Part shown: in pieces, positions 6,779 to 27,073 of the stretch
Numbering within the stretch: the first letter of the stretch is position 1
Layout of the letters: every line of letters begins with the position of its first letter
Source of the DNA: a virus
Length of the DNA: 27,073 nucleotides
Reading direction: 5' to 3' (one strand)
Virus record (IMG/VR): IMGVR_UViG_3300046000_004794
Span: 1 to 27,073 of that record
Position numbers and translations under genes: made by a program
The notes under the pieces: model-generated
The model's input: only the letters and a program-made list of their open reading frames with translations
The model's database searches: none
What the model was told of the DNA's origin: nothing

Positions 6779-7081
6779 ATGGCAATCACGTACAGCAAAT
6801 CCAGTCCTTATAACAACACTAGACAGAATAATCTATATCTAGAACTACTGTCAATAAGACCAGTGCCTGCCGAAACAGATGATTTTAGATATGTTATTGA
6901 AAATCAATACCGACACAGACCAGATCTATTGGCCTATGATCTCTACGGCAATCCTAAATTATGGTGGGTGTTTGTACAGCGAAATATGAGTGTGATCAAA
7001 GATCCTATCTATGATTTTGAACCAGGAACAACCATTTATCTTCCAAAAAGATCAAACCTAGAAAAATTTTTAGGAATCTAA
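6779..7081 (+). CDS. 53: Baseplate wedge protein gp53 (LysM-like)
   Basis: The 100-aa product is a short gp53. Residues about 35-90 hold a LysM-like pattern: YRHRPDLLAYDLYGNPKLWW (44-63) is followed by VFVQRN, and the C-terminal PIYDFEPGTTIYLPK ends with the usual 'G..I.iP' strand. T4 gp53 (196 aa) is about twice as long; the marine form keeps only this core. In T4 gp53 clamps the inner wedge (gp6/7/25) to the hub. The gene starts one base after the upstream TAA, with AGGA at 6765-6768 as ribosome binding site, and is followed one base later by the next gene, so the three are a tight unit. Confidence 0.85.
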   Translation: MAITYSKSSPYNNTRQNNLYLELLSIRPVPAETDDFRYVIENQYRHRPDLLAYDLYGNPKLWWVFVQRNMSVIKDPIYDFEPGTTIYLPKRSNLEKFLGI

Positions 7082-9449: not shown

Positions 9450-11084
9450 ATGGCTGAAGAAAGTAGACCGTCGTCGGAATATGCCAATCAAGGTGGATTG
9501 AGATCTGGCCCCTACCTGGCTAGAATAGTTAATCACCTTGATCCTAGTTTAATGGGTGGCCTTGAAGTCACTCTGTTAAGAGAACAAGGAAATACGTTCG
9601 GTGAAGACACACAGACACACGTGGTTAGGTGTGCTATGCCGTTTTTCGGTTACACTGGTTTTGAATTTATGGGGCAAAATTCTGCTACAGTCTCGGGTAA
9701 GACCAGCGATGCTTATAACGACACACAAAAAAGTTACGGCATGTGGTTTGTACCACCAGACGTGGGTGTAACAGTATTGGTGGTATTCATTGACGGAGAC
9801 CCAGCACAGGGATATTGGATTGGTTGCGTGCCAGCAAGATTCGCCAACAACATGGTGCCTGCGATTGCCGGATCGTCACAAATTGATATTGATAAAACAG
9901 ACAGCGATAGATATGGAATTACCTCGGGCTCAGAACTGTTGCGAGTCACAAATTTACCTGTAGCAGAAATTAATAGAAAACTTAATTCTAAACAACAGGA
10001 GGTTGATCCCGACAAGATTAAAAAACCGGTGCATCCAATGGCTGATCGTTTTTTAGAACAAGGATTGTTGTTTGATGATGTTAGAGGAGTTACAACTAGC
10101 TCGGCACGAAGAGAAGCACCTAGTATGGTATTTGGTATATCAACACCGGGTCCTTTGGATAAAAGAAACGATGCTAAAAAAGCAAAAATAGGAACACAAA
10201 ATTATCAATCTCCAGCGCCGGTTCCAGTCAGTAGACTGGGTGGCACACAGTTTGTAATGGATGATGGTGATGACCGCTATGTGAGAGAAACACCTGCTGG
10301 ATCTGGTCCAGTGAAATATATTGATGTTCTTGAAAAGAAAGTAGTAGGCACAGGCGAAACAGCAACCAATGCCGGAGAACCAACGATTCCTTATAATGAA
10401 TATTTCCGTGTAAGAACTAGAACTGGACATCAAATATTGATGCATAATTCAGAAGATTTAATCTATATCGGAAATGCTAGAGGAACAACATGGGTTGAAT
10501 TAACGTCAAACGGCAAGATTGATATCTATGCCCAAGACAGCATCAGCATCCATACAGAAACTGACCTCAATGTGTTTGCAAATAGAGATATTAATCTAGA
10601 AGCCGGCAGAAATATCAACATGAAATCGGGCGGTAGACTCAAGGCAGACATCGGATCCAACATGGAGCTGTTGATAGCAGCAGACGGTAAAATCACAGTT
10701 GGAGCAAACTGGGATCAAAAAATAGGTGGAACAACAAAATTAGCATCGACGGGCAATATCAATGTAGTATCAGCAGCAAATAATAGATTTACTTCAGGAG
10801 CAAGCACACACATTGTTGCGGTAGGAGAACTTAGAGAAAGTGCCAGTACGATACATATGAATGGAGCATTAGCTGATGTGGGCGATGTGGCAGAACAAGT
10901 GATACCGTTAACAACACATGCAAATCCGGTAACGTCTGCAGCAGCAGATTGGCCCTCAACAAAATATCAGACAGGAACAATATCCAGTATTATGAAAAGA
11001 ATTCCCATGCACGAACCGTGGCCCTTGCATGAAAATCAAGTACCTCAATTTAATACGCCAACAAATACAGATAGAGATACCTAG
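9450..11084 (+). CDS. 5: Baseplate central spike protein gp5, without a visible lysozyme domain
   Basis: The 544-aa product has the gp5 N-terminal OB-fold (residues about 20-130: GPYLARIVNHLDPSLMGGLE, then MWFVPPDVGVTVLVVFIDGD and AQGYWIGCVP). A C-terminal VgrG/gp5-like beta-helix follows (about 317-470: RVRTRTGHQILMHNSEDL, VELTSNGKIDIYA, then repeated 8-10-residue strands such as DINLEAGRNINM). The middle (140-315) contains SSARREAPSMVFGISTPGPL and Pro/Gly linkers but nothing like the T4 lysozyme domain with its Glu-Asp-Thr active site. The protein would be the trimeric membrane-piercing spike under the hub, with cell-wall lysis supplied elsewhere or not needed. The conserved tail MKRIPMHEPWPLHE is as I recall it in marine gp5 proteins. 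No Shine-Dalgarno is seen; translation may be coupled to the upstream gene, whose stop lies 12 nt before. Confidence 0.85.
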   Translation: MAEESRPSSEYANQGGLRSGPYLARIVNHLDPSLMGGLEVTLLREQGNTFGEDTQTHVVRCAMPFFGYTGFEFMGQNSATVSGKTSDAYNDTQKSYGMWFVPPDVGVTVLVVFIDGDPAQGYWIGCVPARFANNMVPAIAGSSQIDIDKTDSDRYGITSGSELLRVTNLPVAEINRKLNSKQQEVDPDKIKKPVHPMADRFLEQGLLFDDVRGVTTSSARREAPSMVFGISTPGPLDKRNDAKKAKIGTQNYQSPAPVPVSRLGGTQFVMDDGDDRYVRETPAGSGPVKYIDVLEKKVVGTGETATNAGEPTIPYNEYFRVRTRTGHQILMHNSEDLIYIGNARGTTWVELTSNGKIDIYAQDSISIHTETDLNVFANRDINLEAGRNINMKSGGRLKADIGSNMELLIAADGKITVGANWDQKIGGTTKLASTGNINVVSAANNRFTSGASTHIVAVGELRESASTIHMNGALADVGDVAEQVIPLTTHANPVTSAAADWPSTKYQTGTISSIMKRIPMHEPWPLHENQVPQFNTPTNTDRDT

Positions 11085-11092
11085 GAGATATT

Positions 11093-11530
11093 ATGGCAAA
11101 TAAACTATACAATCAAAAAACTGTGGCAACCAACACAGCGTCTGTAGGTGATAAAGGCGGCACATTTACCTATAAGGGATTTAGTTCCAAAGAATTTTCT
11201 CGCAATTACAAGCTCTATGATATTGATCTTGTTAAGCAAGATCTAATCAATCATTTTTATATTCGCAAAGGTGAAAAGTTAGAAAATCCTGATTTCGGAA
11301 CGATTATTTGGGATATGCTATTTGAGCCATTTACTGAAGATGTAAAAAATATGATCGCTAAAGATGTAGAGACTATCATTAACTATGATCCGAGAATCGT
11401 GGTAAATGAAGTGTTGATTGATAGTACAGATATTGGAATACGAATACAAGCAGATTTAACGTACATCCCATTCAATATCAACGAACGTATGACATTTGAT
11501 TTTGATAAGAATAATTCTATCATTAACTAA
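11093..11530 (+). CDS. 25: Baseplate wedge protein gp25
   Basis: The 145-aa product belongs to the gp25/GPW/TssE family of contractile-tail wedge proteins, which join gp6 and seed sheath assembly. Diagnostic parts are the N-terminal YDIDLVKQDLINHFYIRKGE (43-62), the core ENPDFGTIIWDMLFEPF (64-80) with the family 'G(T)xxWxxLFEP' box, and DPRIVVNEVLIDS (98-110) followed by the closing strands. Length is close to T4 gp25 (132 aa). AGGAGA at 11083-11088, overlapping the stop of gene 5, is a strong ribosome binding site for the ATG at 11093. It lies just upstream of gene 6, its structural partner. Confidence 0.92.
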   Translation: MANKLYNQKTVATNTASVGDKGGTFTYKGFSSKEFSRNYKLYDIDLVKQDLINHFYIRKGEKLENPDFGTIIWDMLFEPFTEDVKNMIAKDVETIINYDPRIVVNEVLIDSTDIGIRIQADLTYIPFNINERMTFDFDKNNSIIN

Positions 11531-11571: not shown

Positions 11572-14500
11572 ATGACAACAACTAGTAGACAAAATAACCT
11601 AATACTAAATCAAGATTGGACTAGGATTTATCAGACATTTAAAAATGCTGATTTTAAATCATACGATTTTGAAAATCTACGCAGGGTTATTATCACATAT
11701 CTAAGAGAAAATTATCCAGAAGATTTCAATGATTATATTGAATCCTCCGAGTATATGGCTCTTATTGATGCAGTAGCATTTCTAGGACAAAGTCTAGCTT
11801 TCCGTATCGATCTAGCATCAAGAGAAAACTTCATCGAACTAGCAGAACGCAAAGAAAGTGTTCTACGTCTGGCTCGTATGCTTAGTTACAACGCCAAGAG
11901 AAACATAGCGGCTAACGGATTGATCAAATTTTCCAGTATAACAACCACTGAAGAATTATTAGATTCAAACGGTAAAAATCTATCCAACCAGATTGTGTCG
12001 TGGAATGATCCAACTAATACCAACTGGTTAGAACAGTTTATCACTATTCTTAACGCAGCCATGGCTGACAACACAGAATTTGGTCGCAGTCAAGGATCTG
12101 GTACAATACAAGGAATTCCCACAGAACAATATAGATTCAAAACAATCAGCACCGATGTTCCGATTTATACATTCGGAAAAACAGTTGCAGCAAGATCCAT
12201 GACCTTTGAAATAGTCAGCACAGCATTCAAAGACAGCGATGCAGTTTATGAAGAACCACCAGTACCAGGAAACCAACTAGGGTTTATATATCGCAACGAC
12301 GGCAAAGGCCCAGGAAGTCAGAACACTGGCTTCTTTCTGTTATTCAAACAAGGCAGCCTAGAACTTGCAGATTTTTCTATAGATGTTCCAACCACCAACG
12401 AAACTGTAGCAGTAAACAGTGCCAATATCAATAATGATGATATATGGCTATTCAGTCTAGGAAGCAGCGGTAATCAATTGAATCAATGGACGCAGGTTTC
12501 CAGTTTGATTGGAAACAATATTGCGTATAACAGCCTTACACAAAATATCAGAAATATCTACGCTGTTGAAACCAAAGAAGAAGACAGAGTCGATCTAGTA
12601 TTTGCTGATGGTATTTACGGAAACTTACCACAAGGTGCGTTTCGTGTTTATTATAGAATCAGTAACGGACTAAGTTATACTATCGCTCCCGCAGAACTAA
12701 GGGGAATCAACATCACGGTTCCTTATATTAATAAAAGTGGACAATCACATACACTAACCATCGGATTAGCTCTGCAATATTCTGTAGCTTCAAGTGCTGC
12801 ATCAGAAGATATCGATTCAATTAGGACTAATGCTCCTGCTGTGTATTACACACAGAATAGAATGATCACCGGTGAAGATTACAATCTTGCGCCGTTATCT
12901 AGTTCGCAAGACATATTAAAAATTAAATCTATAAACAGAACATCTAGTGGCATCAGCAGAAATTTTGAAATACTCGATGCAAGCGGAAAATACAGCAGTA
13001 TAAATGTATTTGCCGATGACGGATTCATATACAAAGAACAAATAGAAAATCAACTAAATTTTAAATTTACTAGTAGAATCGAAATATTAAATTTCATTAG
13101 ACGCAGCGTTGAACCTATTTTTACTGATACTGCTGTGTATAATTTCTATATTACTAAATTTGATAAAATTCTTTTTACAGATTTAAACAGTGTTTGGCAA
13201 AGTGTTACAACAGATGTTAACATGGCCACTGGATATTTTAAAAATGTAGTTGACAATTCTCTGTTAAAGGTTGGGGTATATTCCACCAGCAGCTTAAAAT
13301 ACCTTGCACCGGGTGCATTAATTAAATTTATTCCGCCTAGCGGATACGCCTTTAAGAAAGGCGAGTTAGTATTGATTGACTCTAACGACTCGGAACAGAC
13401 AGATAGATTATGGACCAAAACTGTTAGAATAGTTGGCGATGGAACTAATGCTGGCAGGGGAGTGTTAACCACGGGACTAGGGCCTGTGACATTTAGTGAT
13501 CCTGTACCAACCGGAGCAATAGCAGATCGAATCGTTCCTAAATTTGTCAACGATTTGCCCACAGCATTAGAAACAGAAATGGTCAACCAAACGTTCCAGG
13601 GATTAAACTTTGGTCTAAGATTCGATGTACCTACATCTACATGGAAAATAATCGCAGCCAGCGATTTAGATCTAGTATCTAATTTTAGTCTAGGTAAGGC
13701 CGGTGACACCACAAACATTAATTTAGATGCATCTTGGATATTGGCATTTGTAAAAGATGTAGATCAATATGTGATAAGAATTCGCGGATTAGATTATGTT
13801 TTTGGTAGCGTAGAACAAAATAGATTTTATTTTGATGCCAATGAAAAACAATACAATGACACGCTAGGGCGAGTAGTTAAAGATCAAGTAAAAGTTCTAG
13901 GAATTAATAAATCCAGTACAGGATCAGCTGTGCCCATAGGCAATGATTTTACTTTTGAAATTGATGACACGATTAAATTTGATGATGGGTATGAAAGTTC
14001 TATAGAAATTAAAGTGGCATTTTCTGATCGAGACGACGATGGTGTTGTAGATAATCCCGAAGCTTTTGAACAGATAGTAGGATTAGATACGCAATTAAAT
14101 TATTTGTTTTTTGAAGAAATAATCGACGAAGCCGGTTCGCAGGTATATCAATTGGTGGATAATTCAGATAATCTAATATTAATAGTTGAAAGAGAATCGC
14201 TGATTACAATTTCTAATTATAATGATGGGCAATTAATATATTTTTATGATTCAGCAGAAGATCAAGTTAAGCGTGTTGATAAGACAACTAACACATTGAT
14301 ATTAGAAAGCACATACAAGGGTGTGGTTGGTCGAGACAATCTCAAATTTCAATACGTACACAATGCTAGTGTTGATAGAAGAATCGATCCTAGTGTGAGT
14401 AATATTGTTGATATTTTCTTGTTGACTAGAAGTTACGATTCTGCATTTAGAACCTATTTAATAGGCGGAACAGATACAGAGCCAGAAGCACCCAACAGCG

Positions 14501-14976
14501 ACAGTTTAAAAATCAGCTTTGGTTCTAAATTAGACGCTATCAAATCTATCAGTGACGATATCATTTATCATCCTGTGAAATACAAGGTATTGTTTGGAGT
14601 CAAGGCAGAAACAAAATTACAAGCACAATTTAAAGTGGTTAAAAATCCTGGGCAAACAATCAATGACAATGAGTTAAAAGTTAGAATAGTCACTGCTATT
14701 AATGAGTTTTTTGATATTGCAAACTGGGACTTTGGTGATAAATTTTATCTTAGTGAATTAACTACCTATGTGTTAAATCAAGTGGCTCCGGATATCAGTA
14801 ATATAATAATAGTTCCAAGACAGACTAGACAGTCATTTGGCAGTTTGTTTGAAATACAGAGTGGCCCAGATGAAATTTTTGTCAATGGTGCCACAGTAGA
14901 CGATATAGTGATAGTTTCAGCGATAACCGCATCCGAGGTTAGAGCACCCATTGCGAGCATTGTAACGACAACATAA
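11572..14976 (+). CDS. 6: Baseplate wedge protein gp6, enlarged form
   Basis: The 1134-aa product keeps both ends of T4 gp6. The N-terminus (DWTRIYQTFKNADFKSYDFE, then YPEDFNDYIESSEYMALIDA and FLGQSLAFRIDLASRENF) is almost word for word T4 gp6. The C-terminus from about residue 1000 (AINEFFDIANWDFGDKFYLS, YVLNQVAPDISNIIIVP, SFGSLFEIQSGPDEIFVNGA) matches the T4 end. T4 gp6 has about 660 residues, so some 450 extra residues lie in between, about 540-1000, with beta-rich sequence (LAPGALIKFIPPSGYAFKKG; VPKFVNDLPTAL; YVIRIRGLDYVFGS). I recall similar expansions in other marine T4-like gp6 proteins. gp6 dimers form the inner iris of the baseplate with gp7 and gp25. AGGAAC upstream supports the ATG at 11572. 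Confidence 0.92.
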   Translation: MTTTSRQNNLILNQDWTRIYQTFKNADFKSYDFENLRRVIITYLRENYPEDFNDYIESSEYMALIDAVAFLGQSLAFRIDLASRENFIELAERKESVLRLARMLSYNAKRNIAANGLIKFSSITTTEELLDSNGKNLSNQIVSWNDPTNTNWLEQFITILNAAMADNTEFGRSQGSGTIQGIPTEQYRFKTISTDVPIYTFGKTVAARSMTFEIVSTAFKDSDAVYEEPPVPGNQLGFIYRNDGKGPGSQNTGFFLLFKQGSLELADFSIDVPTTNETVAVNSANINNDDIWLFSLGSSGNQLNQWTQVSSLIGNNIAYNSLTQNIRNIYAVETKEEDRVDLVFADGIYGNLPQGAFRVYYRISNGLSYTIAPAELRGINITVPYINKSGQSHTLTIGLALQYSVASSAASEDIDSIRTNAPAVYYTQNRMITGEDYNLAPLSSSQDILKIKSINRTSSGISRNFEILDASGKYSSINVFADDGFIYKEQIENQLNFKFTSRIEILNFIRRSVEPIFTDTAVYNFYITKFDKILFTDLNSVWQSVTTDVNMATGYFKNVVDNSLLKVGVYSTSSLKYLAPGALIKFIPPSGYAFKKGELVLIDSNDSEQTDRLWTKTVRIVGDGTNAGRGVLTTGLGPVTFSDPVPTGAIADRIVPKFVNDLPTALETEMVNQTFQGLNFGLRFDVPTSTWKIIAASDLDLVSNFSLGKAGDTTNINLDASWILAFVKDVDQYVIRIRGLDYVFGSVEQNRFYFDANEKQYNDTLGRVVKDQVKVLGINKSSTGSAVPIGNDFTFEIDDTIKFDDGYESSIEIKVAFSDRDDDGVVDNPEAFEQIVGLDTQLNYLFFEEIIDEAGSQVYQLVDNSDNLILIVERESLITISNYNDGQLIYFYDSAEDQVKRVDKTTNTLILESTYKGVVGRDNLKFQYVHNASVDRRIDPSVSNIVDIFLLTRSYDSAFRTYLIGGTDTEPEAPNSDSLKISFGSKLDAIKSISDDIIYHPVKYKVLFGVKAETKLQAQFKVVKNPGQTINDNELKVRIVTAINEFFDIANWDFGDKFYLSELTTYVLNQVAPDISNIIIVPRQTRQSFGSLFEIQSGPDEIFVNGATVDDIVIVSAITASEVRAPIASIVTTT

Positions 14977-14977
14977 T

Positions 14978-17900
14978 ATGGCAGATAAATTTCCAAAAAG
15001 CGGTTTACCAATTAGAAAAACAGTAGAACTGTTACCTTCGATATTTAGGTCAGACATCAATGACAAGTTTATGTCTGCAGTGGTTGATCCCTTGGTACAA
15101 CCAGGGTCATTAGAAAAATTAGTAGGATATATTGGTCGTAGATATGGTAAGACATATCGTAGTCCAGATGTTTACTTAGATTCTGATAATACACTAAGAA
15201 GTCGGTATCAATTAGAACCAGGGGTCGTTGTTAAAAGAGACGACGGATCTGTGGAAAAATTTTATGATTTCATTGATTTTAAAAATCAATTAAAATTCTT
15301 TGGCAACGACGATGATCGCGATAATCTAATTACATCACAGGATCACTACAGTTGGAATCCTCCTAAGCACTGCGACAAATATGTAAACTTCCTCGAATGC
15401 TATTGGGTGCCAGAAGGACCACCACCGGTGGATGTCTTTGGTCAGCCACGCACAGTAGGCAGTCAATATGGCGTCAAGCTAGGAGTAAATTCATTTATTC
15501 TAAGTCCAGATGGCTATACCAATAATCCCACCCTAACATTGTATAGGGGCGAAACCTACAAGTTTAGAGTCAACTGTCCTCAAGAAGGATTTGTGATTAG
15601 GACCAACTATGATACTGGTTCGCTGATATTCAATCCTAACAGAGCCTATGCTGCAGGACAATTTGCAGTTTATGACAGCAAATTATGGAAAGCTAACATT
15701 GATATTTTACAAGGTGATGGCAGCACTATATCCTCAGAAAGCGGCGATTGGACATACGTAGAAAATATATCCACAGGAACTGCACTTGACTATAACAACG
15801 GTGTGACCAATAATGGTGTTGAAAATGGTTTTCTAGAATTTAAAGTTCCATACGATGCGCCCGATGTGCTGTTTTATCAAGGTAAAATAACACCAGATAG
15901 ATTTGGTCGTATCATGATTGCTAACATTGAATCAAATACTTTTGTTGATGTTGAAAAAGAAATCATAGGCAAAGAAACTTACACCAGCGGAAATGGAGTT
16001 AAGTTTACCACAGGACTAATCGTAGAATTCAAGGGCAATGTAACTCCCGTAAAATATGCCACAGGTCGTTGGGTAATTGAAAATGTAGGGGTTAAAATCA
16101 ATGTAGTCAACTGGGACGATTTAGTTATTCCTAGACTGGCAAAAACCGTGCCAGAAATAGTTTTTGATAATGAAGGATTTGACACACAACCGTTTGACGA
16201 TGCGTCAACGTACCCAACTGATCAAGATTATATAGTCATTAGTAGAGACAGCATTGATCTTAATCCTTGGTCACGATACAATCGTTGGTTCCATCGACAA
16301 GTTCTAGAATACGCACATCAGTTACGAGGCGAAGATTTCTCAGCGCCAGAAACTGCTAGAGCCAAGCGACCAATCTTTGAATTCTTACCAGGACTACAAT
16401 TATTCAATCATGGTCGTATCGCAAAGCAGACAGTTGACTATATTGATGATTATACTACAGATATTTTATCCAGTATCGAAGGCAGTGTGGGATATAGCAT
16501 TGATGGAGAAACATTATTTCAAGGTGCGAGAATCTTAGTTGTGGCCGACGAAGACGAATTAACAAATAATAAAATTTATCAAATAGAATTTATCACCCAC
16601 AATGGTAAAAAACAAATCCACTTAGCGGAAACTGAGGACAGTGACTCTGCAGAAGGCGAATGTGTATTAATTCGAAGAGGCCAAAAAAACGCAGGATTAA
16701 TGTTTCATTACAACGGTACAGCATGGGTAAAAAGTCAAGTTAAAACCAAGGTAAACCAGGCTCCGTTGTTCGATGTATACGATACCGACGGTGTAAGTTT
16801 TTCAGATCCAGATAGATATCCCGAAAGTACTTTCGCTGGTACTGAATTAGTGGGATACAAAGTGGGCACCGGTAAAGTGGATTCTAAATTAGGATTTCCA
16901 TTGGCCTATCTCAATATCAACAACATCGGAGATTTGTTGTTCCATTTTAATTGGGATACTGATACCTTTAGATACAGAAAAGATACCGAGACCGTGACTC
17001 AAAGAATAGCCACAGGATTTTACTATCTAGATGATTCTGGCGGGTACGGTGGTTGGGGGAATGGATGGATTGATACTTCTAGAAAATATTTGATGCCGTT
17101 GATTGACAGCATAATAATATCCGAACCTACCAATACCATTACTCTTACTATTATTAATTGGGACGAAATAGCCCTTGATAGTGATTATGAAATTAGATTC
17201 TATCTCAACGGCGGGATATTCAAAAGTCCATATACAAGAGATTTTAACAAATTTATTTTCAGTGAAAAAACATTTGAAGTAGATGATATAGTTTCTATTA
17301 AACTGGTGACCGATGTTGCACCCGATACTGGATACTATGAAATACCTATGGGCTTGGAAAAAAATCCTCTCAATGCCCCTGTGGCAGAATGGACACTTGG
17401 TCAAGCAGCTGACCACTTAAATTCTGGTTTAGATTTCAATCCTAATTGGACTGGAGTAGTTCCCGGGCTAAACGACCTGCGAGATATTCCATTAGACGAA
17501 TTTGGAAAATCATGGAACACTTATAGTACTAGGTACATGCACCATTCTGGCATAGCACCGATCGCAGTGAGTCTGTTATGCGATAAAACAAATAATGTTA
17601 TCAAGGCTCTGCAATATGCTAAAAAATCATATACTAACTTTAAAAATAATTTCTTAGATAGAGCTATTGCATTACCTTATAATGATAATGTCGCAGATTT
17701 TGTAGATGATATTATTGCAGACATAACCAGAACAAAAACCATAGACAGTGCATTTGCCGACAGCGACATGATTGGTAGCGGAGCTTACACTGCTATCAAA
17801 TACATTGTAGAAGACACTGGAACAAATACATTTGCGCTTTCTGCAAAATTTTCGTTGACAGAACTTAGTCGACGAGCTGTATATGTTTATATCAATAATC

Positions 17901-20900
17901 AACAATTATTGAATACCAAAGACTATGAGTTCAATGCTACATTTGGTTTCGTGATTATTAGTAAATCTCTAGAGATTAATGATGTAATTGAAATCAGAGA
18001 ATATGTGTCAACAGCGACAAATTATATTCCTACAACACCAACAGCTATCGGCTTGTATAAAAAATATACTCCTATGCAATTTGTTGATGATACATATCTA
18101 GAGCCAAAAACAGTGATACAGGGACATGATGGTAGCATCACTATTGCATATGACGATTTTCGAGATCAATTATTATTAGAATTAGAATATAGAATATACA
18201 ATAATATTAAACAGGAATATAACGAACCTTTGTTTAGCATTGATAAAGTTGTTGGCGGTTATTACGGAAATGCGTTATATACCAAACCTCAACTTGACGC
18301 AGTAGTAAATCAAGAATTTTTAAAGTGGATACAAAACACAAATATTAGTTATACTGCTAATACAACATTTGATTCAGAGAACAGTTTCACCTATACCTAT
18401 ACTAATATGACTGACCCAACAGGTACGCAGCGTTTACCTGGGTATTGGAGAGGAGTGTATAACTGGTTCTATGACACAGATCGTCCACATCGCTGCCCTT
18501 GGGAAATGTTAGGCTTTTCTCAAATGCCAACATGGTGGGAAGATGAATATGGACCAGCACCATATACCAAATACAATTTAATCTTATGGGAAGATCTGCG
18601 TGACGGTATCGTTCGTCAAGGTGATCGCAAAGGCATCTACGACAGATATAAACGACCATCATTGATGTCGCACATCCCAGTTGACGGTGATGGAAAACTT
18701 TTAAGCCCGCTGGATTCAAATCTAGCTGGAGACTTTGCATTAATCAATAATCAAGGATCCTTTGTGCTAGGGGACATAGCTCCGGTAGAGTATGCTTGGA
18801 GAGCCAGCTCAGAATGGCCATTCGCTGTTACTATGGCTATGTGCTTAATGAAACCATTTGATTTTATCAATGATAGTCTTGATAGATCTAGAATTAAATT
18901 AAACAAACTAGACCAAACTGTGCATAAAAACACAGACCTCTTTATCACATTAGATGACATAGTGATGCCTGTGTCTGGTGGAGATCAGACTGCAGGGCTG
19001 TTAAATTATCTTGCAGATTATGCTAAATCAATAGGAATATCTCTAGATGAAGTTGAAAGAAAAATAAAAAATATCGACGTGAGATTGACCACTAGATTAA
19101 GCGGATTTGTTGACAAAGGTCAACAGAGATATCTGTTAGATTCAAAGAGCCCTAAATCAGCCAGCAGCAGTGTGTTTGTGCCTCCAGAAAATTATGACAT
19201 AATCTTTAATGTTAGCACCCCGATCTCCAGCGTAACGTACAGCGGAGTTATTATCGAAAAAACACAAGGTGGTTGGATTATCACAGGATACGATGATTCC
19301 ACTCCATATTTTGAATATACCGACGTGTCACCGAATCAAAAGGATCCATTGATATCAATAGGCGGTGTATCAGAAACATTTGTTAATTGGGAAGCAGGAA
19401 AACAGTTCAATAATGGACAGATTTGTAGACTGAATAACACCTTCTATAGAGCACTGAAGACACATACGTCGAGTACTGAATTTGATAATACTCTATGGAA
19501 AAAATTATCTAAACTACCGCTGATAGGTGCAGTTGAAGCACTTAGAAGAAGAAATTTTAACAGAGCTGTTAAAAAATTAAGTTACGGCACTAAATTAATT
19601 TCTGTACAAGAAGTTGTTGATTTCTTATTGGGCTACGAACAATATCTTAAATCTCAAGGATTTAAATTTGATAGATATGATGCTGAAAATCAAGTAGCAC
19701 AAGATTGGTTGACCAGCTGTAAAGAATTCATGTTCTGGACCAGACATAATTGGGCTGTAGGCTCATTGATCACTCTTAGTCCGTCGGCACAAAAATTAGA
19801 TATCACTATTCCTGTGGGAGTAGCTGATAATATTCTCGACGGATTCTATGAATATCAAATACTCAAAGGCGATGGAAAACCCCTCACTCCTAATCTTATC
19901 AACGTCAATAGAACCTTCCAAAATATCACAGTTGAAACTGCAAACACAGAAGAAGGTATATATTATCTAAAACTATATTATGTTCTAAAAGAACACGTGA
20001 CTATTTTTGATGATAGAACGGTGTTCAATGATATCCTTTATGACAAGACCACAGGATATCGTCAAGAGCGTATTAAATCTCAGGGTTTCCGCACAGTGGA
20101 TTGGGATGGCGACTACACTAGTCCGGGATTCTTGTTCGATAATGTAGACATACAGCCTTGGCAGCCTTTCACAGATTATAGACTGGGAGATATAGTTTCA
20201 TATAGAAGCTATAATTGGACCAGCTTGATTAATCAACTAGGCACTGTGGAATTTGATCCGACTAATTGGACCAAGCTAGATTCAACACCAGAAAAACAAT
20301 TGGTAGCGAACTTTGATTATAAAGTTAATCAGTTTGAAGATTACTACGATGTTGCATCGGCGGGTATAGGAGAAAATCAAAGAGCACTAGCTCGACATTC
20401 TGTAGGTTATCAAACCAGAGAGTATCTGCAAAATCTATCTGAAGATCCTGTAACACAATTTAGATTGTACCAAGGATTTATTCGTGAAAAAGGCACAGCC
20501 AATGCTGTTACTAAAATATTCAATAAACTCAGCCGTACTGGTGATGCTATCGAATTAAATGAAGAATGGGCGTTTAGAGTAGGTAGACTAGGCGGAATAG
20601 ATCAACTCAAAGAAATAGAAATTTTATTAGAGAAAGATAAATTTCAAGTTAATCCTCAGCCAATACTCGTGCTTGATACCAAACCGGTTAATATATTAGA
20701 TCAATATTATAGAATAGTGGGATCAGATTTTTCCATACAGCCAATCCCGTTTACCACACACATTAATCCGATATCCACAGAAGCCGAACCTGTTAGAACT
20801 GCAGGTTATGTAAAAACAGATCAAATAGATTTTGTTGTTTCGTCTAGAGATGATATATTAAACATTGATATCAATTCTGTGATTGAAAACGATCACATAT

Positions 20901-23900
20901 GGGTTACATTTGACAAATATACTTGGTCAGTGTTAAGATACAATCAGTCACCGATTATAACAATAACCGCCGTTACTAAATCTGCAAATTTTGTTACGAT
21001 AACTCTAGATCGTCGACACAACTTTGTCGTAGACAATATTGTTGGTTTCAAAGAAATTACATATCTTGAAGGATTTTTTCGAATCACAGCAGTTGGTCTA
21101 TTTACAATAACCGTCGAAGTTAGTCCGTCGGCACAAGACCCGTTGTTTGATAACAGCACTATCGCTTATATCTACACACTAACACCTGCTAGGTTCGAAT
21201 CATACGATGTGTTAGATTTTCAACATGCTGCGATATTAAAAGACGGGTCTAAACTATGGATTGATAATAATGGCAGCAATAGTTGGGAAGTTATTGAAAA
21301 GAAAAAACAATTTGCTGAGAAACAGATCACAGAATATGGTACAACTTCTCCCTTATACGCCGGATCAAAAGTATTATACATTGACAATCTAAAACAAACA
21401 ATTTCTAGTATCCCTGGATCTGGATATGTAATGTCTTATATTGAAACGGCAGCTGGTCTAGTATTGAAACAAATCATAGCACCGCCCGCAGGATTTGAAT
21501 CTGGAGTATTGGGCTCTTTTGGTAAATCCATGGCAGTAAGTGCAGATAACAGATGGTTGATTATAGGTTCTCCCAACGCTAGCGGTATTCGTAGTAATTA
21601 TCAAGGAACATTCAATCCTTCTGCAACCTATCTCACAGATGACATCGTAGTATATGCAGGTAAACTATGGAAATCATTGACCACTAATGTAGGCGATGGA
21701 AGTTCGATCAATATCAGTTCTAATGATTGGGCACCAGCGACATCAATACCGGCTTTCACAGCAGGAACTACAGCAGGGTATACTAACCAAGGTATGATTT
21801 CAATATATGAATGGGAAAATCAACGATGGGCTCTTAAATCCTCGTTTGTCAGCCCACGTCCCAACAACGACGAATTATTTGCATCTGATATAACTATCGG
21901 TCAATCTGGTAACACCTATTACATGGCAGTTTCTGCGGTGGAGTCTGCAGATGGCCGTGGTCGTGTATATCTTTATACCTACAATGGAACAGAATGGAAA
22001 CACCTAGAAAATCAAAATTACAAAGGTATATATGATCCAGTATCTACTGCATATTATGCAGGCGAAATAGTATGGTATGATTCTACACTATGGATGTGCC
22101 TAGAAGATTCGACATACGGTGATGGCAGTACAATTTCTGTGGAATCTGCAGGGTGGCAACGAATGGATCCTATTTCCACCCACAGCTCGTTACCAACAAA
22201 CATCGCCATAGATGATGATGGATCAACATTGGGTAACCTATTAGAAACACAAGCAGGAATACTTTCAAATTCACAACTTGCAGAATTAATTAAAATTGGT
22301 GACAAGTTTGGAACCAGCATTGCAATGAATAGGGATGCCAGCGTGTTAGCAGTCGGAGCACCATTCAGCGACGGACAATATTTCCCCAACTTCCGAGGCG
22401 TGTGGAGACCCGATATAGAATACATTGAGGGAGATGTAGTTAGATATCAAAACGGATATCATAAACTTGTACAAAGATTTGGCGAATTATTAGATTCGAC
22501 CACTCGTAGTTTCAACGAAGCTCCAGACCTCGGTCAGCCTTGGGATAGCGTCGGTGATAGCACAGGCGAATCATCAGGAAAAGTTTTCATATATCAAAGA
22601 TCCCAAACCGGCATATACGAATTAAAACAAACAATTACATCGGGATCTATGATTGATCTCAACGATGTTGATTCCGGAACCACCCCAATCGCAGCCGGTG
22701 ATCAATTCGGGTGGAGCCTGGACATAGACTATTCTGGAACAACACTGTTAGTTACCAGCCCTAAAGCAGATATCAATTTTCAAAATCAAGGCAGCGCCTA
22801 TATTCTGCGCACAGATAGTTTTGCTGGCATCGAATATCGATTAAAACAAAAACTTGAAAGTTTTGAAATATATCCAAATGAATATTTCGGTCAAAGCGGA
22901 TCGATAAGTTATGACGGTGATAGAATAGCCATAGGTGCTAACAATTCTCCATATTCATTGCCTACTAGATTTGATATCACACAAGGCACAACATTCGATC
23001 AAAGCAGAACTAGATTTGTTGATAGAAAAGGGTATTCTGGTGCGGTATACGTATTTGAGAAAAAAGACGACAATTATTTCTTAGTCGAAAAATTAGAAGC
23101 TACGTTATCGCCATTTGAATCATTTGGATTTAGTGTTGATTGTTCACATTCAGCGATTGCTGTTGGATCGCCTGATTACATTGCGCCAGCTACCCACGGA
23201 ACTGTGCTGGCCTACGACGGACCTAAGACTGGTATAGTTAGATTATTTAGAAAAGATTCCTCAGTAAATTCTTGGAATACGCTAGGAACTCAAACATCGG
23301 TTGTTGATGTCACTGCTATAAAGAGTATTGAATTATACGATAATATTAAAAATGTTAAGATACAAGACATAGACTATGTTGATAATGCTAAACTAAAAAT
23401 ACTCAACATCGCAGAACAAGAAATTAAATTTAAAACTATCTATGACCCAGCAGTTTATACCATTGGTACCGATGAACAGGTAGTAGATACAACAACAGCA
23501 TGGGCTGAGAGACATGTCGGTGAGTTGTGGTGGGATTTATCTACAGCTAAATGGAAATATTACGAACAGGGAGATGCTGCATATAGAACCGGAAATTGGA
23601 ATGCCCTAGCAGAAGGAGCCACCATTGACGTGTATGAATGGGTTGAAACTTTACTGTTACCTAACGAATGGGCTGCCATTGCTGATACCAACGACGGTAT
23701 TGCACAGGGAATTTCTGGCCAACCGTTGTATCCCGACAACACAGTGCATTCAGTAAAAGTATTAATTAATCCTAATACTGGACTAGCAACTAGCACACTA
23801 TATTATTATTGGGTAAGAAATAAAACAATAATTCCTGCAAATAACCCAACCAGAAGAATTGCAGCTTCGGAAGTGGCTGCAGCGATTGAAAATCCAGCAG

Positions 23901-26900
23901 GATCGGGCGTCGCCTTTATTGCGCTAATTGATAGTGATAAATTTTTAACGTATAATTTTGAATCAATACTGGCTTCAGATACTGCACTGTTGAATATCCA
24001 ATATCTAAAAAATAAAAAACAATTAAATTCGATTCACAATGAATATCAACTGCTAACAGAAGGACTGGCAGATAGTTTGCCAACAACAAGTCTAGAAACC
24101 AAATGGATTGACAGCTTGATAGGTAGCGACATAATTGGTAATGTTATTCCTGATCCTAAATTGCCTGCTAAACAGAAATACGGAATTAATTTTCGACCAC
24201 GTCAGGGCATGTTCATAGATCGAAGAAGCATATTAAAAATTACTATCGATAAAATAAACACGTTCCTAAAGAAAGAACCGTTCTTGGATATCGTACCATT
24301 TGATACATTAAATGACTTTGAATCAGCACCATCAGCCTCATTGAATTTATATGATCAGGCAGTGGATAATCAAGTTGATTTGATCACTATTGGTACAGCT
24401 AGAGTTCGTCAAGCGGTGCTATCAGTCAATATCATAAACAATCAAGTTGATAACATCACTATAGTTAACAGAGGGTTTGGATATAAAAAAGTTCCTCCGA
24501 TAATTATTACAGGCGACGGAACAGGAGCCACTGCTGAAGCAACAATTGATAGTCAAGGACGTATAATTTCTGTAACAGTTATTACCAAGGGGAAAAAATA
24601 TACATCGGCTACTGCTGTGGTTAGACAATTTTCTATATTAGTTAATGCAGATGAAACCACTAACGGATTCTGGGCTATCTACGCCTGGGACGATGTAAGA
24701 AAAATATTCTATAGAAGTAGAACACAGTCGTATGACACGACAAAATATCAATATTCTGAGGATTGGTGGGCCGAAGGATACGGATCCACTAGCAGGATTG
24801 TTAAAGAAGTAGCGTATTTTACATTGATCCCTTCAATCACAGTGGCGATCGGCGAGCTAATTAGAATCACAGAATACGGTAGCGGCAGTTGGGCAGTATT
24901 TGAAAAAATAGCAACCACCAACGCATATTTCTTTGACAACTATAAATTGGTAGGAAGAGGTTCAGGAACTTTTCAGTTAAGTACATCGCTTTGGAATAAT
25001 AGGCTATCGGGAATTGGATTTGACAATACTGCATCCTTTGACACTAAATTATACGACATCGACAACAGCAAAGAATTGCGTATTATATTAGATAATATCA
25101 AAAACAAATTGTTTATCGGTGAATATGCTGTTGAGTGGAACACATTGTTTTTTACTGCTGTGAGATATGCTTTCGCTGAACAACAATATATTGATTGGGC
25201 ATTTAAAACAAGTTTCTTAAATGCCACACACAATGTTGGTTCTCTTGAACAGAAATTAAATTATAAAAACGACAATCTATCAAGTTTTCAAGAATATATA
25301 CAAGAAGTTAAACCATATAGAACCACGGTTCGAGAGTATCTCAGCAAATATTCAACTACGGAACCACTAGATCAAGCCACGACAGATTTTGATCTACCAC
25401 CGGCTTTCTCTACTGCTGAAGGAAAAATAATTCCTATATCTAATTCTAATGAGGAAATACAATCGTATCCTTGGCGTTGGTGGTTAGATAATCGAGGATT
25501 TGGTATAACTGCGATCGAAGTATCTGATGCAGGCGAAGGATATACCACAGTACCTAATGTGTTAATTTCCGGTAACGGCACAGGGGCTAGAGCACGAGCG
25601 TTTGTGTCTAATGGTGCGATTTCCGGTTTTGAAATCTTAGATCAAGGTACCGGATATACACAAACTCCAACTATAACGCTAGTGGGAGGAAACAGTGCCA
25701 GACTGGCATCTGCGATTGCAATACTCGGTGATTCTAAAGCTAGAACATTTGGTATCACAGTGAAATTTGATAGATTATCTAAGCAGGGTACCTATATTGA
25801 GCTGTCACAGGAACAGGTATTTACTGCCACAGGATTTACTTCGGTATTTGATTTAAATTATGCATCGACGCGAGATAAAAGTAAAATCACCATTACCAAA
25901 GATAATCAGGTGGTTTTAAATGATGAATATATAATCAATCTTTATACATCTACCACAGATACCTATAGTTTATTAAAAGGTAAAATTATATTTGTAACAG
26001 TGCCCGAAGCAGGCAGCATTATTAAAGTTACCTATGAGAAAAATGATTCCTTGCTAGATGCAGTCAATCGTATAGAAAAATTCTACGCACCAAGCTCAGG
26101 AATGCGAGGCAAAGAACTATCACAGTTAATGACCGGTATAGATTTTGGTGGCGTTCAGATTCAGGGCACAACATTTGATGTCACAGGCGGCTGGGATGCT
26201 CTTCCTTGGTTCACAGATAACTGGGACAGCGTGGAAGCAGCAGCCGATTATTATGTGGTCTGTGACGGAAGCACTACTTTCGTGACTCTACCGTTTGTAC
26301 CATCCGCGGGACAAGAAATTAATATCTATTTAAAACGTGCAGGAACAGGAATTGCAAGAGACATAGATACATTAGGGCCGACCACAGCACCAACTGTGGT
26401 ATTTGTCGAATCCACACAAGCTCCTGCGGCGGTGAGAATAGATTCTCCTTATTTTGTACTAGGAGACGATTCGTCAACATCTGTAAATCCTAATGCACAG
26501 ATGCCTACCTTCATTGGTGACGGTGTTACAAACACTATAGAGATTGGAATTTACATACAGACAAATGTTGGGGATATATTGATATTCCGTCCTATAGAAA
26601 GCGATGGCAGTGTGACCATAACTGATAATAATCTTTTAGATACCAAACTAAGTGGCGGTACTTTCTCAGCGACGGGATCCACAGCAACCAATATTGCTCC
26701 AAACACCATAGACGGTATATATGCAATCGCTAGCGGAACACTGGCAGAAGAAATATCCATAGACGGTGATAAATTTATTTCTCCTGATCAAGTACCTGCG
26801 CCAGAAGAAAACGTTCCAGGACAGGTATTGGACAGCGTCAGCATCAAGGTGTTCAATAATACCCGCTCTGGTGCAGCACCTCTGCAATCTAAGACTCTAA

Positions 26901-27073
26901 TATCAAATGGAACTACTAAGATATATGATATTGATCTAGAAATTCTAGAATCTCGCTCATTGTTGGTATATGTCAATAAAATCAAACAAGAATTCAACAG
27001 TGCAGATTCCACAATTAATTATGCCATTGATTTTATCACCAAGCAGATCGAATTCACGACTGCACCTGCAGCA
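14978..27073 (+). CDS. Giant virion structural protein in the gene 7 position (partial, 3' end outside window)
   Basis: From ATG 14978 the frame stays open for 4,032 codons to the last base; I read it through and found no stop. It starts one base after the gene 6 stop, with no Shine-Dalgarno, so coupled translation is likely. The N-terminus (FPKSGLPIRKTVELLPSIFR; SRYQLEPGVVVKRDDGS; VNFLECYWVPEGPPP) and internal blocks resemble large, poorly characterised structural proteins I recall from marine T4-like phages: LWEDLRDGIVRQGDRKG near residue 1203, LTTRLSGFVDKGQQRYLLDS near 1370, GELWWDLSTAKWKYYEQGD near 2846 and KYGINFRPRQGMF near 3067. Visible modules are six carbohydrate-binding-like units (from 218 to 2525), an FG-GAP propeller (about 2172-2765) and two Gly-Tyr-Thr-type repeats (3163-3215, 3515-3571). 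No signal peptide or protease motif is seen. Gene order suggests a wedge or peripheral baseplate protein replacing or extending gp7; a side fibre or adhesin is the alternative. Confidence 0.85.
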   Translation, partial: MADKFPKSGLPIRKTVELLPSIFRSDINDKFMSAVVDPLVQPGSLEKLVGYIGRRYGKTYRSPDVYLDSDNTLRSRYQLEPGVVVKRDDGSVEKFYDFIDFKNQLKFFGNDDDRDNLITSQDHYSWNPPKHCDKYVNFLECYWVPEGPPPVDVFGQPRTVGSQYGVKLGVNSFILSPDGYTNNPTLTLYRGETYKFRVNCPQEGFVIRTNYDTGSLIFNPNRAYAAGQFAVYDSKLWKANIDILQGDGSTISSESGDWTYVENISTGTALDYNNGVTNNGVENGFLEFKVPYDAPDVLFYQGKITPDRFGRIMIANIESNTFVDVEKEIIGKETYTSGNGVKFTTGLIVEFKGNVTPVKYATGRWVIENVGVKINVVNWDDLVIPRLAKTVPEIVFDNEGFDTQPFDDASTYPTDQDYIVISRDSIDLNPWSRYNRWFHRQVLEYAHQLRGEDFSAPETARAKRPIFEFLPGLQLFNHGRIAKQTVDYIDDYTTDILSSIEGSVGYSIDGETLFQGARILVVADEDELTNNKIYQIEFITHNGKKQIHLAETEDSDSAEGECVLIRRGQKNAGLMFHYNGTAWVKSQVKTKVNQAPLFDVYDTDGVSFSDPDRYPESTFAGTELVGYKVGTGKVDSKLGFPLAYLNINNIGDLLFHFNWDTDTFRYRKDTETVTQRIATGFYYLDDSGGYGGWGNGWIDTSRKYLMPLIDSIIISEPTNTITLTIINWDEIALDSDYEIRFYLNGGIFKSPYTRDFNKFIFSEKTFEVDDIVSIKLVTDVAPDTGYYEIPMGLEKNPLNAPVAEWTLGQAADHLNSGLDFNPNWTGVVPGLNDLRDIPLDEFGKSWNTYSTRYMHHSGIAPIAVSLLCDKTNNVIKALQYAKKSYTNFKNNFLDRAIALPYNDNVADFVDDIIADITRTKTIDSAFADSDMIGSGAYTAIKYIVEDTGTNTFALSAKFSLTELSRRAVYVYINNQQLLNTKDYEFNATFGFVIISKSLEINDVIEIREYVSTATNYIPTTPTAIGLYKKYTPMQFVDDTYLEPKTVIQGHDGSITIAYDDFRDQLLLELEYRIYNNIKQEYNEPLFSIDKVVGGYYGNALYTKPQLDAVVNQEFLKWIQNTNISYTANTTFDSENSFTYTYTNMTDPTGTQRLPGYWRGVYNWFYDTDRPHRCPWEMLGFSQMPTWWEDEYGPAPYTKYNLILWEDLRDGIVRQGDRKGIYDRYKRPSLMSHIPVDGDGKLLSPLDSNLAGDFALINNQGSFVLGDIAPVEYAWRASSEWPFAVTMAMCLMKPFDFINDSLDRSRIKLNKLDQTVHKNTDLFITLDDIVMPVSGGDQTAGLLNYLADYAKSIGISLDEVERKIKNIDVRLTTRLSGFVDKGQQRYLLDSKSPKSASSSVFVPPENYDIIFNVSTPISSVTYSGVIIEKTQGGWIITGYDDSTPYFEYTDVSPNQKDPLISIGGVSETFVNWEAGKQFNNGQICRLNNTFYRALKTHTSSTEFDNTLWKKLSKLPLIGAVEALRRRNFNRAVKKLSYGTKLISVQEVVDFLLGYEQYLKSQGFKFDRYDAENQVAQDWLTSCKEFMFWTRHNWAVGSLITLSPSAQKLDITIPVGVADNILDGFYEYQILKGDGKPLTPNLINVNRTFQNITVETANTEEGIYYLKLYYVLKEHVTIFDDRTVFNDILYDKTTGYRQERIKSQGFRTVDWDGDYTSPGFLFDNVDIQPWQPFTDYRLGDIVSYRSYNWTSLINQLGTVEFDPTNWTKLDSTPEKQLVANFDYKVNQFEDYYDVASAGIGENQRALARHSVGYQTREYLQNLSEDPVTQFRLYQGFIREKGTANAVTKIFNKLSRTGDAIELNEEWAFRVGRLGGIDQLKEIEILLEKDKFQVNPQPILVLDTKPVNILDQYYRIVGSDFSIQPIPFTTHINPISTEAEPVRTAGYVKTDQIDFVVSSRDDILNIDINSVIENDHIWVTFDKYTWSVLRYNQSPIITITAVTKSANFVTITLDRRHNFVVDNIVGFKEITYLEGFFRITAVGLFTITVEVSPSAQDPLFDNSTIAYIYTLTPARFESYDVLDFQHAAILKDGSKLWIDNNGSNSWEVIEKKKQFAEKQITEYGTTSPLYAGSKVLYIDNLKQTISSIPGSGYVMSYIETAAGLVLKQIIAPPAGFESGVLGSFGKSMAVSADNRWLIIGSPNASGIRSNYQGTFNPSATYLTDDIVVYAGKLWKSLTTNVGDGSSINISSNDWAPATSIPAFTAGTTAGYTNQGMISIYEWENQRWALKSSFVSPRPNNDELFASDITIGQSGNTYYMAVSAVESADGRGRVYLYTYNGTEWKHLENQNYKGIYDPVSTAYYAGEIVWYDSTLWMCLEDSTYGDGSTISVESAGWQRMDPISTHSSLPTNIAIDDDGSTLGNLLETQAGILSNSQLAELIKIGDKFGTSIAMNRDASVLAVGAPFSDGQYFPNFRGVWRPDIEYIEGDVVRYQNGYHKLVQRFGELLDSTTRSFNEAPDLGQPWDSVGDSTGESSGKVFIYQRSQTGIYELKQTITSGSMIDLNDVDSGTTPIAAGDQFGWSLDIDYSGTTLLVTSPKADINFQNQGSAYILRTDSFAGIEYRLKQKLESFEIYPNEYFGQSGSISYDGDRIAIGANNSPYSLPTRFDITQGTTFDQSRTRFVDRKGYSGAVYVFEKKDDNYFLVEKLEATLSPFESFGFSVDCSHSAIAVGSPDYIAPATHGTVLAYDGPKTGIVRLFRKDSSVNSWNTLGTQTSVVDVTAIKSIELYDNIKNVKIQDIDYVDNAKLKILNIAEQEIKFKTIYDPAVYTIGTDEQVVDTTTAWAERHVGELWWDLSTAKWKYYEQGDAAYRTGNWNALAEGATIDVYEWVETLLLPNEWAAIADTNDGIAQGISGQPLYPDNTVHSVKVLINPNTGLATSTLYYYWVRNKTIIPANNPTRRIAASEVAAAIENPAGSGVAFIALIDSDKFLTYNFESILASDTALLNIQYLKNKKQLNSIHNEYQLLTEGLADSLPTTSLETKWIDSLIGSDIIGNVIPDPKLPAKQKYGINFRPRQGMFIDRRSILKITIDKINTFLKKEPFLDIVPFDTLNDFESAPSASLNLYDQAVDNQVDLITIGTARVRQAVLSVNIINNQVDNITIVNRGFGYKKVPPIIITGDGTGATAEATIDSQGRIISVTVITKGKKYTSATAVVRQFSILVNADETTNGFWAIYAWDDVRKIFYRSRTQSYDTTKYQYSEDWWAEGYGSTSRIVKEVAYFTLIPSITVAIGELIRITEYGSGSWAVFEKIATTNAYFFDNYKLVGRGSGTFQLSTSLWNNRLSGIGFDNTASFDTKLYDIDNSKELRIILDNIKNKLFIGEYAVEWNTLFFTAVRYAFAEQQYIDWAFKTSFLNATHNVGSLEQKLNYKNDNLSSFQEYIQEVKPYRTTVREYLSKYSTTEPLDQATTDFDLPPAFSTAEGKIIPISNSNEEIQSYPWRWWLDNRGFGITAIEVSDAGEGYTTVPNVLISGNGTGARARAFVSNGAISGFEILDQGTGYTQTPTITLVGGNSARLASAIAILGDSKARTFGITVKFDRLSKQGTYIELSQEQVFTATGFTSVFDLNYASTRDKSKITITKDNQVVLNDEYIINLYTSTTDTYSLLKGKIIFVTVPEAGSIIKVTYEKNDSLLDAVNRIEKFYAPSSGMRGKELSQLMTGIDFGGVQIQGTTFDVTGGWDALPWFTDNWDSVEAAADYYVVCDGSTTFVTLPFVPSAGQEINIYLKRAGTGIARDIDTLGPTTAPTVVFVESTQAPAAVRIDSPYFVLGDDSSTSVNPNAQMPTFIGDGVTNTIEIGIYIQTNVGDILIFRPIESDGSVTITDNNLLDTKLSGGTFSATGSTATNIAPNTIDGIYAIASGTLAEEISIDGDKFISPDQVPAPEENVPGQVLDSVSIKVFNNTRSGAAPLQSKTLISNGTTKIYDIDLEILESRSLLVYVNKIKQEFNSADSTINYAIDFITKQIEFTTAPAA
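15629..15760 (+). repeat. Carbohydrate-binding-like module 1 (residues 218-261)
   Basis: FNPNRAYAAGQFAVYDSKLW, then GDGSTISSESGDW, follows the 'Y..G..v.y.gklWka......p....W' pattern of chitin-binding type 3 / CBM5/12-like modules. It lies alone near the N-terminus of the giant protein. Ligand unknown. Confidence 0.55.
19382..19507 (+). repeat. Carbohydrate-binding-like module 2 (residues 1469-1510)
   Basis: VNWEAGKQFNNGQICRLNNT followed by FYRALKTHTSSTEFDNTLW keeps the aromatic, Gly and terminal Trp spacing of the same module type. It follows the KGQQRYLLDS block of the giant protein. Confidence 0.5.
20156..20278 (+). repeat. Carbohydrate-binding-like module 3 (residues 1727-1767)
   Basis: PWQPFTDYRLGDIVSYRSYN followed by VEFDPTNWTKL has the 'Y..GDiV.y....w.....h....f.p..W..l' pattern typical of the CBM5/12-like fold. 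Confidence 0.55.
21611..21739 (+). repeat. Carbohydrate-binding-like module 4 (residues 2212-2254)
   Basis: FNPSATYLTDDIVVYAGKLW followed by GDGSSINISSNDWAP. It closely parallels modules 1 and 5, including the GDGS-x-I motif before the final Trp, and is inserted after the first blade of the FG-GAP propeller. Confidence 0.6.
22031..22165 (+). repeat. Carbohydrate-binding-like module 5 (residues 2352-2396)
   Basis: YDPVSTAYYAGEIVWYDSTL followed by GDGSTISVESAGWQRM. It shares GDGSTIS with module 1 exactly and sits between FG-GAP blades. Confidence 0.6.
22403..22552 (+). repeat. Carbohydrate-binding-like module 6 (residues 2476-2525)
   Basis: WRPDIEYIEGDVVRYQNGYH then KLVQRF, with a longer tail ending in GQPWDSV. 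The front half fits the module; the spacing to the last Trp is extended. It also lies between FG-GAP blades. Confidence 0.5.
24464..24622 (+). repeat. Gly-Tyr-type beta repeat A (residues 3163-3215)
   Basis: VNRGFGYKKVPPIIITGDGT, then GATAEATIDSQGRIISVTV and TKGKKYTSATAVV. This is a 'GxGYxxxPxvxitGdGtGAtAxAxv...G.i.svtv...G.gYt' unit, a type frequent in large tail proteins of marine phages as I recall. Confidence 0.65.
25520..25690 (+). repeat. Gly-Tyr-type beta repeat B (residues 3515-3571)
   Basis: VSDAGEGYTTVPNVLISGNG, then TGARARAFVSNGAISGFEI and DQGTGYTQTPTITLVGG. It is a second copy of repeat A about 350 residues later, diverged but with the same spacing. Confidence 0.65.

Follow-up and report, generated by a model that had tools for sequence, protein, structure and literature searches.

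A giant structural protein with carbohydrate-binding-like modules in the gene 7 position of an uncultivated phage clade

In phage T4 the slot after gp6 is occupied by gp7, a protein of 1,032 aa. Cyanophages have giants there: Synechococcus phage ACG-2014d (KJ019048.1, 45300–65753; L097) encodes the 6,817-aa protein Syn7803C75_72 directly after gp6, and S-MbCM7 has VrlC (3,533 aa) in the same slot. The VrlC protein is predicted to shape double-layered baseplates (PMC6630229). Carbohydrate-binding folds in a wedge-position protein are known from phage Vp4, whose CBM-bearing Gp119 (baseplate wedge 3) binds Bacillus host cells (PMC11406892). The likeness of Gp119 to the protein described below is one of description, and it differs in its length (831 aa), its CBM16-like and xylanase-type folds and its Gram-positive host.

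Jumbo phages (>200 kb) carry giants of PHROG 10938, annotated as virion structural protein, with PA5oct gp355, Atu_ph07 AUZ94962, SCTP-2 gp140, RaK2 ORF070w, CBB_236, phAPEC6 gp245 and 121Q gp582 as named members. According to its record note, gp355 was detected in the PA5oct virion by ESI-MS/MS. CBB_236, which adjoins the wedge protein CBB_237, gave 21 peptides in the virion (PMC5259590). The 381.88-kDa gp245, encoded directly after wedge gp244, gave 17 unique peptides (PMC7247149) and is taken here as a homologue by size and neighbor, not by alignment. The RaK2 paper lists 54 virion proteins, among which we could not confirm ORF070w. In the literature we found neither a published account of what the PHROG 10938 giant does nor a structure or immuno-localisation of it.

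An open frame of at least 4,032 codons

The window, that is the whole stretch of DNA analysed, comprises all 27,073 bases of its source record. From an ATG at position 14978 one plus-strand frame runs for 4,032 codons without a stop and is still open at the 3′ end (14978–27073), just as the original prediction described it. Judged by base composition, a run of 4,032 open codons has a probability of ~10^-122, and the other five frames over the gene hold 168–441 stops each. The frame cannot be extended in its own genome because the record is only 27,073 bases long, and the extension to a stop codon was instead supplied by relatives. A scan of viral contigs yielded 148 close relatives. After dereplication, 36 contigs carry a complete single-frame gene, encoding 4,216–4,971 aa (median 4,608). 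The closest complete relatives, L015 (91% identical) and L019 (92% identical), encode 4,620 and 4,621 aa, and thus ~589 residues are lacking past the window edge. The full-length L015 protein has ~515 kDa per chain, which agrees with the expectation that such a protein would be a dominant mass.

The ten isolates that were read all have an intact giant (3,138–4,555 aa). The dN/dS ratio of the gene is 0.049–0.062 overall, with no measurable block above ~0.09, and a tandem-repeat search found no tandem repeats in it. A frameshift or misassembly, which the original prediction had named as the way in which it could fail, is ruled out for the window, since dozens of independent assemblies contain the identical single frame. 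We conclude that the giant gene is one intact gene under strong purifying selection throughout. One relative, L027, has a frameshift at residue 3,117 (13061–13092) that yields overlapping ORFs of 3,127 and 1,435 codons; this is either a sequencing error or a real break.

Gene neighborhood and family

The minus strand of the window carries gp46, gp47 and gp55. The plus strand carries a virion structural protein (phrog_12050; 5653–6777), a gp53-like baseplate wedge protein (6779–7081), a second virion structural protein (phrog_11190; 7083–9437), a gp5-like hub/spike protein (9450–11084), a gp25-like wedge protein (11093–11530), a gp6-like wedge protein of 1,134 aa (phrog_10646 and phrog_219; 11572–14976) and the giant. 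The stop of the gp6-like gene sits 1 nt before the ATG of the giant. In HHalign the gp6-like protein matched T4 gp6 with E=7e-5 and cyanophage gp6 with E=1.8e-10. Among related loci with enough upstream sequence to test, the start of the giant lies beside a long gp6-like ORF in 85 of 85, at a spacing of -1 to +79 nt (mostly -1 to +11), which confirms the predicted placement right after gp6. Gene order in RaK2, CBB and PA5oct is closely as in the window, and the order 25-6-giant recurs in phages of Klebsiella, Pseudomonas, Vibrio, Agrobacterium and Xanthomonas. The exception among the isolates examined is Salicola phage SCTP-2 (L005, 8624–17914), where a second giant of 3,096 aa lies directly upstream in the place of the gp6-like gene; it is possibly an enlarged or fused gp6. 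Downstream of the giant, L015 encodes a 222-aa protein (phrog_11259) followed by three tail-collar/tail-fibre-like genes.

In the hub protein, OB and DUF2345 spike domains were matched and a lysozyme domain was not; the tail lysozyme of this phage may be encoded at another place. At the hub locus of CBB, RaK2 and 121Q, either the hub gene is of lysozyme type or a lysozyme gene stands on its own. A 144-aa gene on the minus strand (1250–1681) matched a PHROG labelled NAD synthetase (3.9e-39) as well as homing-endonuclease PHROGs, and the NAD synthetase label looks doubtful. The T4 late promoter TATAAATA has one match in the window, below chance expectation, and none near the giant.

The giant matches PHROG 10938 with E=7e-284, best over residues 761–1726. 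By tblastn, homologues occur in 83–87 phage records, nearly all of them jumbo phages or their fragments; these include the PA5oct group, Atu_ph07, Phosso, SCTP-2, RaK2 and K64-1, and further CBB, GAP32, 121Q, PBECO4, XacN1, Vibrio 2.275.O and others. A later scan of viral contigs for the family gave at least 591 confirmed stretches. The window itself is a 27-kb fragment, and the related contig L063 is 280 kb long. Two relatives (L178 and L185) come from contigs (PBPT01000016.1, 335 kb, and PBPT01000082.1) assigned to a Neomarinimicrobiota MAG; these are probably jumbo-phage sequence that contaminates the bin, or else hint at the host.

These matches, together with the homologues found in the virion proteomes of PA5oct, CBB and phAPEC6, bear out a single giant structural protein from a family known by sequence and not by function. 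The jumbo-phage giants share with it the slot, an overlapping size range (3,138–4,555 aa) and homology in the N-terminal 170 aa and in a core at residues 986–1720. The suggested kinship with marine T4-like phages was inexact, as the homologues belong to RaK2-, PA5oct- and Atu_ph07-type jumbo phages. Its marine part stands in so far as the cyanophage giants occupy the same slot and are giant too, that of ACG-2014d being far larger than the window giant, but the sole part clearly common to them and the window giant is one repeat module (GY..xP/GA.A.A), and we found no homology between them in the N-terminus or the core.

Module architecture

The window holds the first 4,032 of ~4,621 codons of the gene, and all modules below are given on the plus strand. 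The N-terminal region (residues 1–170; 14978–15487) is conserved in all isolates and, from its position, is a candidate dock on gp6. Residues ~150–375 (15425–16102, range estimated) are predicted by AF2 and Foldseek to form a cupredoxin-like beta-sandwich, matching rusticyanin with a Foldseek probability of 1.00; copper-ligand Cys, His and Met residues are not evident in the motif, either in the sequence or in the family consensus. CBM5/12-like module 1 (residues 207–281; 15596–15820) is inserted into this sandwich. A beta module at residues 957–1012 (17846–18013) is followed by the most conserved core of the family (residues 986–1720; 17933–20137), with the motifs PWEMLGF..P.WW and EH....T.F.D. 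Apart from its CBM-like module, the core gave no PDB fold match in the model of residues 986–1900. Module 2 (residues 1470–1514; 19385–19519) lies within the core and matches 1ED7, and module 3 (residues 1727–1776; 20156–20305) lies just after it.

An FG-GAP beta-propeller region spans residues ~2147–2730 (21416–23167); FG-GAP_2 was matched over 2130–2780 in 17 of 17 relatives, with a best value of 7.3e-26. CBM5/12-like modules 4 (residues 2204–2261; 21587–21760), 5 (2346–2412; 22013–22213) and 6 (2471–2510; 22388–22507) are inserted in it. Apparent internal deletions in the short 91–95% contigs L035, L044, L055, L056 and L074 (matches reaching 2415–2458) are most likely cross-matches among the CBM-like modules and not real deletions. 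Further on, a GY..xP.v.i/GA.A.A repeat occurs at residues 3137–3214 (24386–24619) and 3510–3595 (25505–25762); it is common to other phage structural PHROGs and to the cyanophage giants. The window ends within the start of a T7-tail-fibre-N-like domain (PF03906; residues 3975–4032; 26900–27073), which was matched in 17 of 22 relatives with a best value of 1.2e-8. The full-length protein has related beta modules at residues 4176–4255 and 4276–4355, the module at 957–1012 being a further copy. The repeats were found with slices of the family profile against L015, with no matches in a reversed-sequence control; plain BLASTP found no internal repeats, so that profile slices were needed.

Over the whole protein, the Pfam model CBM_5_12 scores 51–62 bits (window 51.3) against a cut-off of 26.2. 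Taken as six separate pieces, each has CBM_5_12 as its top Pfam match, although singly they stay below the cut-off. In PDB profile searches the core matched best to the chitin-binding domain of chitinase A1 (1ED7, E=0.0023), on which the 986–1900 model superposes with a TM-score of 0.75 (on target), 1.7 Å and probability 1.00. The propeller region matched All3316 (7B5H, E=2.7e-4) on a CBM-like stretch; we take All3316 to be from the Anabaena contractile injection system. The modules thus resemble known CBM5/12 domains in sequence and fold, with fold support covering those within the two AF2 models, and differ from them in being embedded in a virion structural protein.

The conserved scaffold of the protein consists of residues 1–170, 400–650, 986–1720, 2800–2900 and 3400–3500. 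One relative of 4,216 aa, L045, has large deletions relative to L015 that take in the propeller region and ~3961–4349 including the T7-fibre-like domain, which suggests that these modules are dispensable. CBM-like modules number 5–7 per giant in the uncultivated clade of the window, as opposed to 1–2 in Atu_ph07, Phosso, PA5oct, SCTP-2 and Vibrio 2.275.O and none in RaK2, CBB, 121Q, RAS14 and XacN1. The clade also differs in its FG-GAP propeller, for which Pfam gave no match in the four isolates scanned. The absence of CBM modules from the RaK2-type homologues shows that the family's core function is something other than sugar binding. From these counts, the scaffold would seem to be the ancestral part and the sugar-binding-like modules to be cassettes acquired later, a polarity drawn from the distribution and not from a tree. 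The family itself is already in databases and virion proteomes; what is new here is a CBM-expanded branch with a beta-propeller.

Proposed role at the baseplate

We consider it probable that the giant is a modular protein of the baseplate wedge or periphery of a jumbo phage, which connects the fibres with the gp6 ring and makes many weak glycan contacts. Its baseplate location is well supported by gene order and by proteomics of whole virions, which is not specific to the baseplate. We infer its copy number, docking on gp6 and fibre attachment. The giant would be made from a tightly packed gene run (53, structural, hub, 25, gp6-like, giant), and its conserved N-terminal part and core would dock onto the gp6-like wedge ring. 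There it would fill the outer baseplate, as gp7 and its partners do in T4; descent from gp7 could not be detected. The periphery would then be a chain of beta modules comprising the cupredoxin-like domain, the FG-GAP propeller, the six CBM5/12-like modules and the T7-fibre-N-like adapters. The C-terminal adapter domains probably link the fibres encoded downstream to the wedge. The CBM-like modules, whose glycan role is putative, probably add many weak, multivalent contacts to surface glycans in adsorption; they may also be spacers or protein-protein contacts, and such modules fold in many proteins.

The giant holds the gene 7 position, as T4 gp7 does between gp6 and the remaining wedge and fibre genes, and its direction of transcription and the remaining gene order are T4-like. 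It could on these grounds be a genuine orthologue of gp7 that domain insertions have enlarged and divergence has made unrecognizable, and the C-terminus of gp7 does align weakly to ~1710–1783 in several relatives (E 0.15–1, not independent). Similarity to the 1,032-aa gp7 in sequence, profile or fold was nevertheless not found. Searching six T4-like gp7 proteins with the HMM of the giant family gave E 0.2–0.9, and the reverse search 0.07–1. Twelve segments of the giant against a T4-like gp7 profile in HHalign gave E 0.15–0.83 at a probability below 1%, while the gp6-like protein, the positive control of the same run, scored against T4 and cyanophage gp6. PDB profile searches returned no gp7. 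The AF2 models of residues 1–985 (mean pLDDT 78.8) and 986–1900 (mean 76.9, core mostly 80–95) are partial and of medium quality, and gp7 was absent among their listed Foldseek matches in the PDB and BFVD. At E ≤ 0.001 the core model matched in the viral library BFVD only apparent members of its own family, the named ones from Atu_ph07 or uncultured phages. Membership of the gp7 family is therefore not supported, and we regard hidden orthology as unlikely.

The corresponding searches for gp10 (HMMER, HHalign, PDB profile and Foldseek) were negative apart from a weak Foldseek match of the N-terminal part to CBA120 TSP4-N, which has XD domains similar to domains of T4 gp10; this match comes without alignment coordinates and is not decisive. 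Matches of the N-terminal A2 profile to N-acetylneuraminate lyase (E 0.2) and of the A3 profile to Cys-tRNA ligase (E 0.037) were judged to be chance.

Instead of being part of the baseplate body, the protein might form long fibres or whiskers on the outside, as the original prediction had allowed. Its great length, its beta-rich modular build and its T7-fibre-N-like and CBM-like modules would fit such a structure, and RaK2 has ramified fibres and CBB 119-nm whiskers. The giant is present, however, both in CBB, which has tail whiskers, and in GAP32, which may not, and this makes a long external structure less likely; the search for whisker candidates in fact looked at CBB genes that GAP32 lacks. 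The long fibres of RaK2 are assigned to gp526–gp534 and not to the giant, no tandem array was found, and the giant is fixed beside gp6 with dedicated fibre genes coming after it. We find this alternative rather improbable. A role inside the tail, as a tape measure or otherwise, which the size and the structural gene cluster could suggest, is very improbable given that both AF2 models are beta-rich, unlike helical tape measures, that CBM, FG-GAP and fibre-adapter modules are typical of exposed proteins, and that the gene sits between gp6 and the fibre genes. An artefact joining several genes by misassembly or frameshift, to which the exit of the frame at the contig end and the split in L027 might point, has next to no chance against the 36 complete single-frame relatives, the intact giants of the ten isolates and a uniform dN/dS of ~0.05.

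Beyond a modular wedge or periphery protein, a bolder version is that in this contractile-tail baseplate one ~515-kDa polypeptide unrelated to gp7 replaces several T4 wedge proteins and adds a glycan-binding outer skirt built of CBM5/12 modules. We put this forward only tentatively. If true, an outer skirt arising from repeated CBM5/12 capture would be a way of adsorbing that differs from the use of dedicated tail fibres.

The giant family is abundant, and its member here is the largest protein of its own gene cluster. At least the jumbo phages and the cyanophages, two separate groups, have filled the gene 7 slot with giants in which no shared core can be detected. The CBM-expanded clade leads to the testable idea that jumbo-phage baseplates may carry glycan-binding modules inside the wedge.
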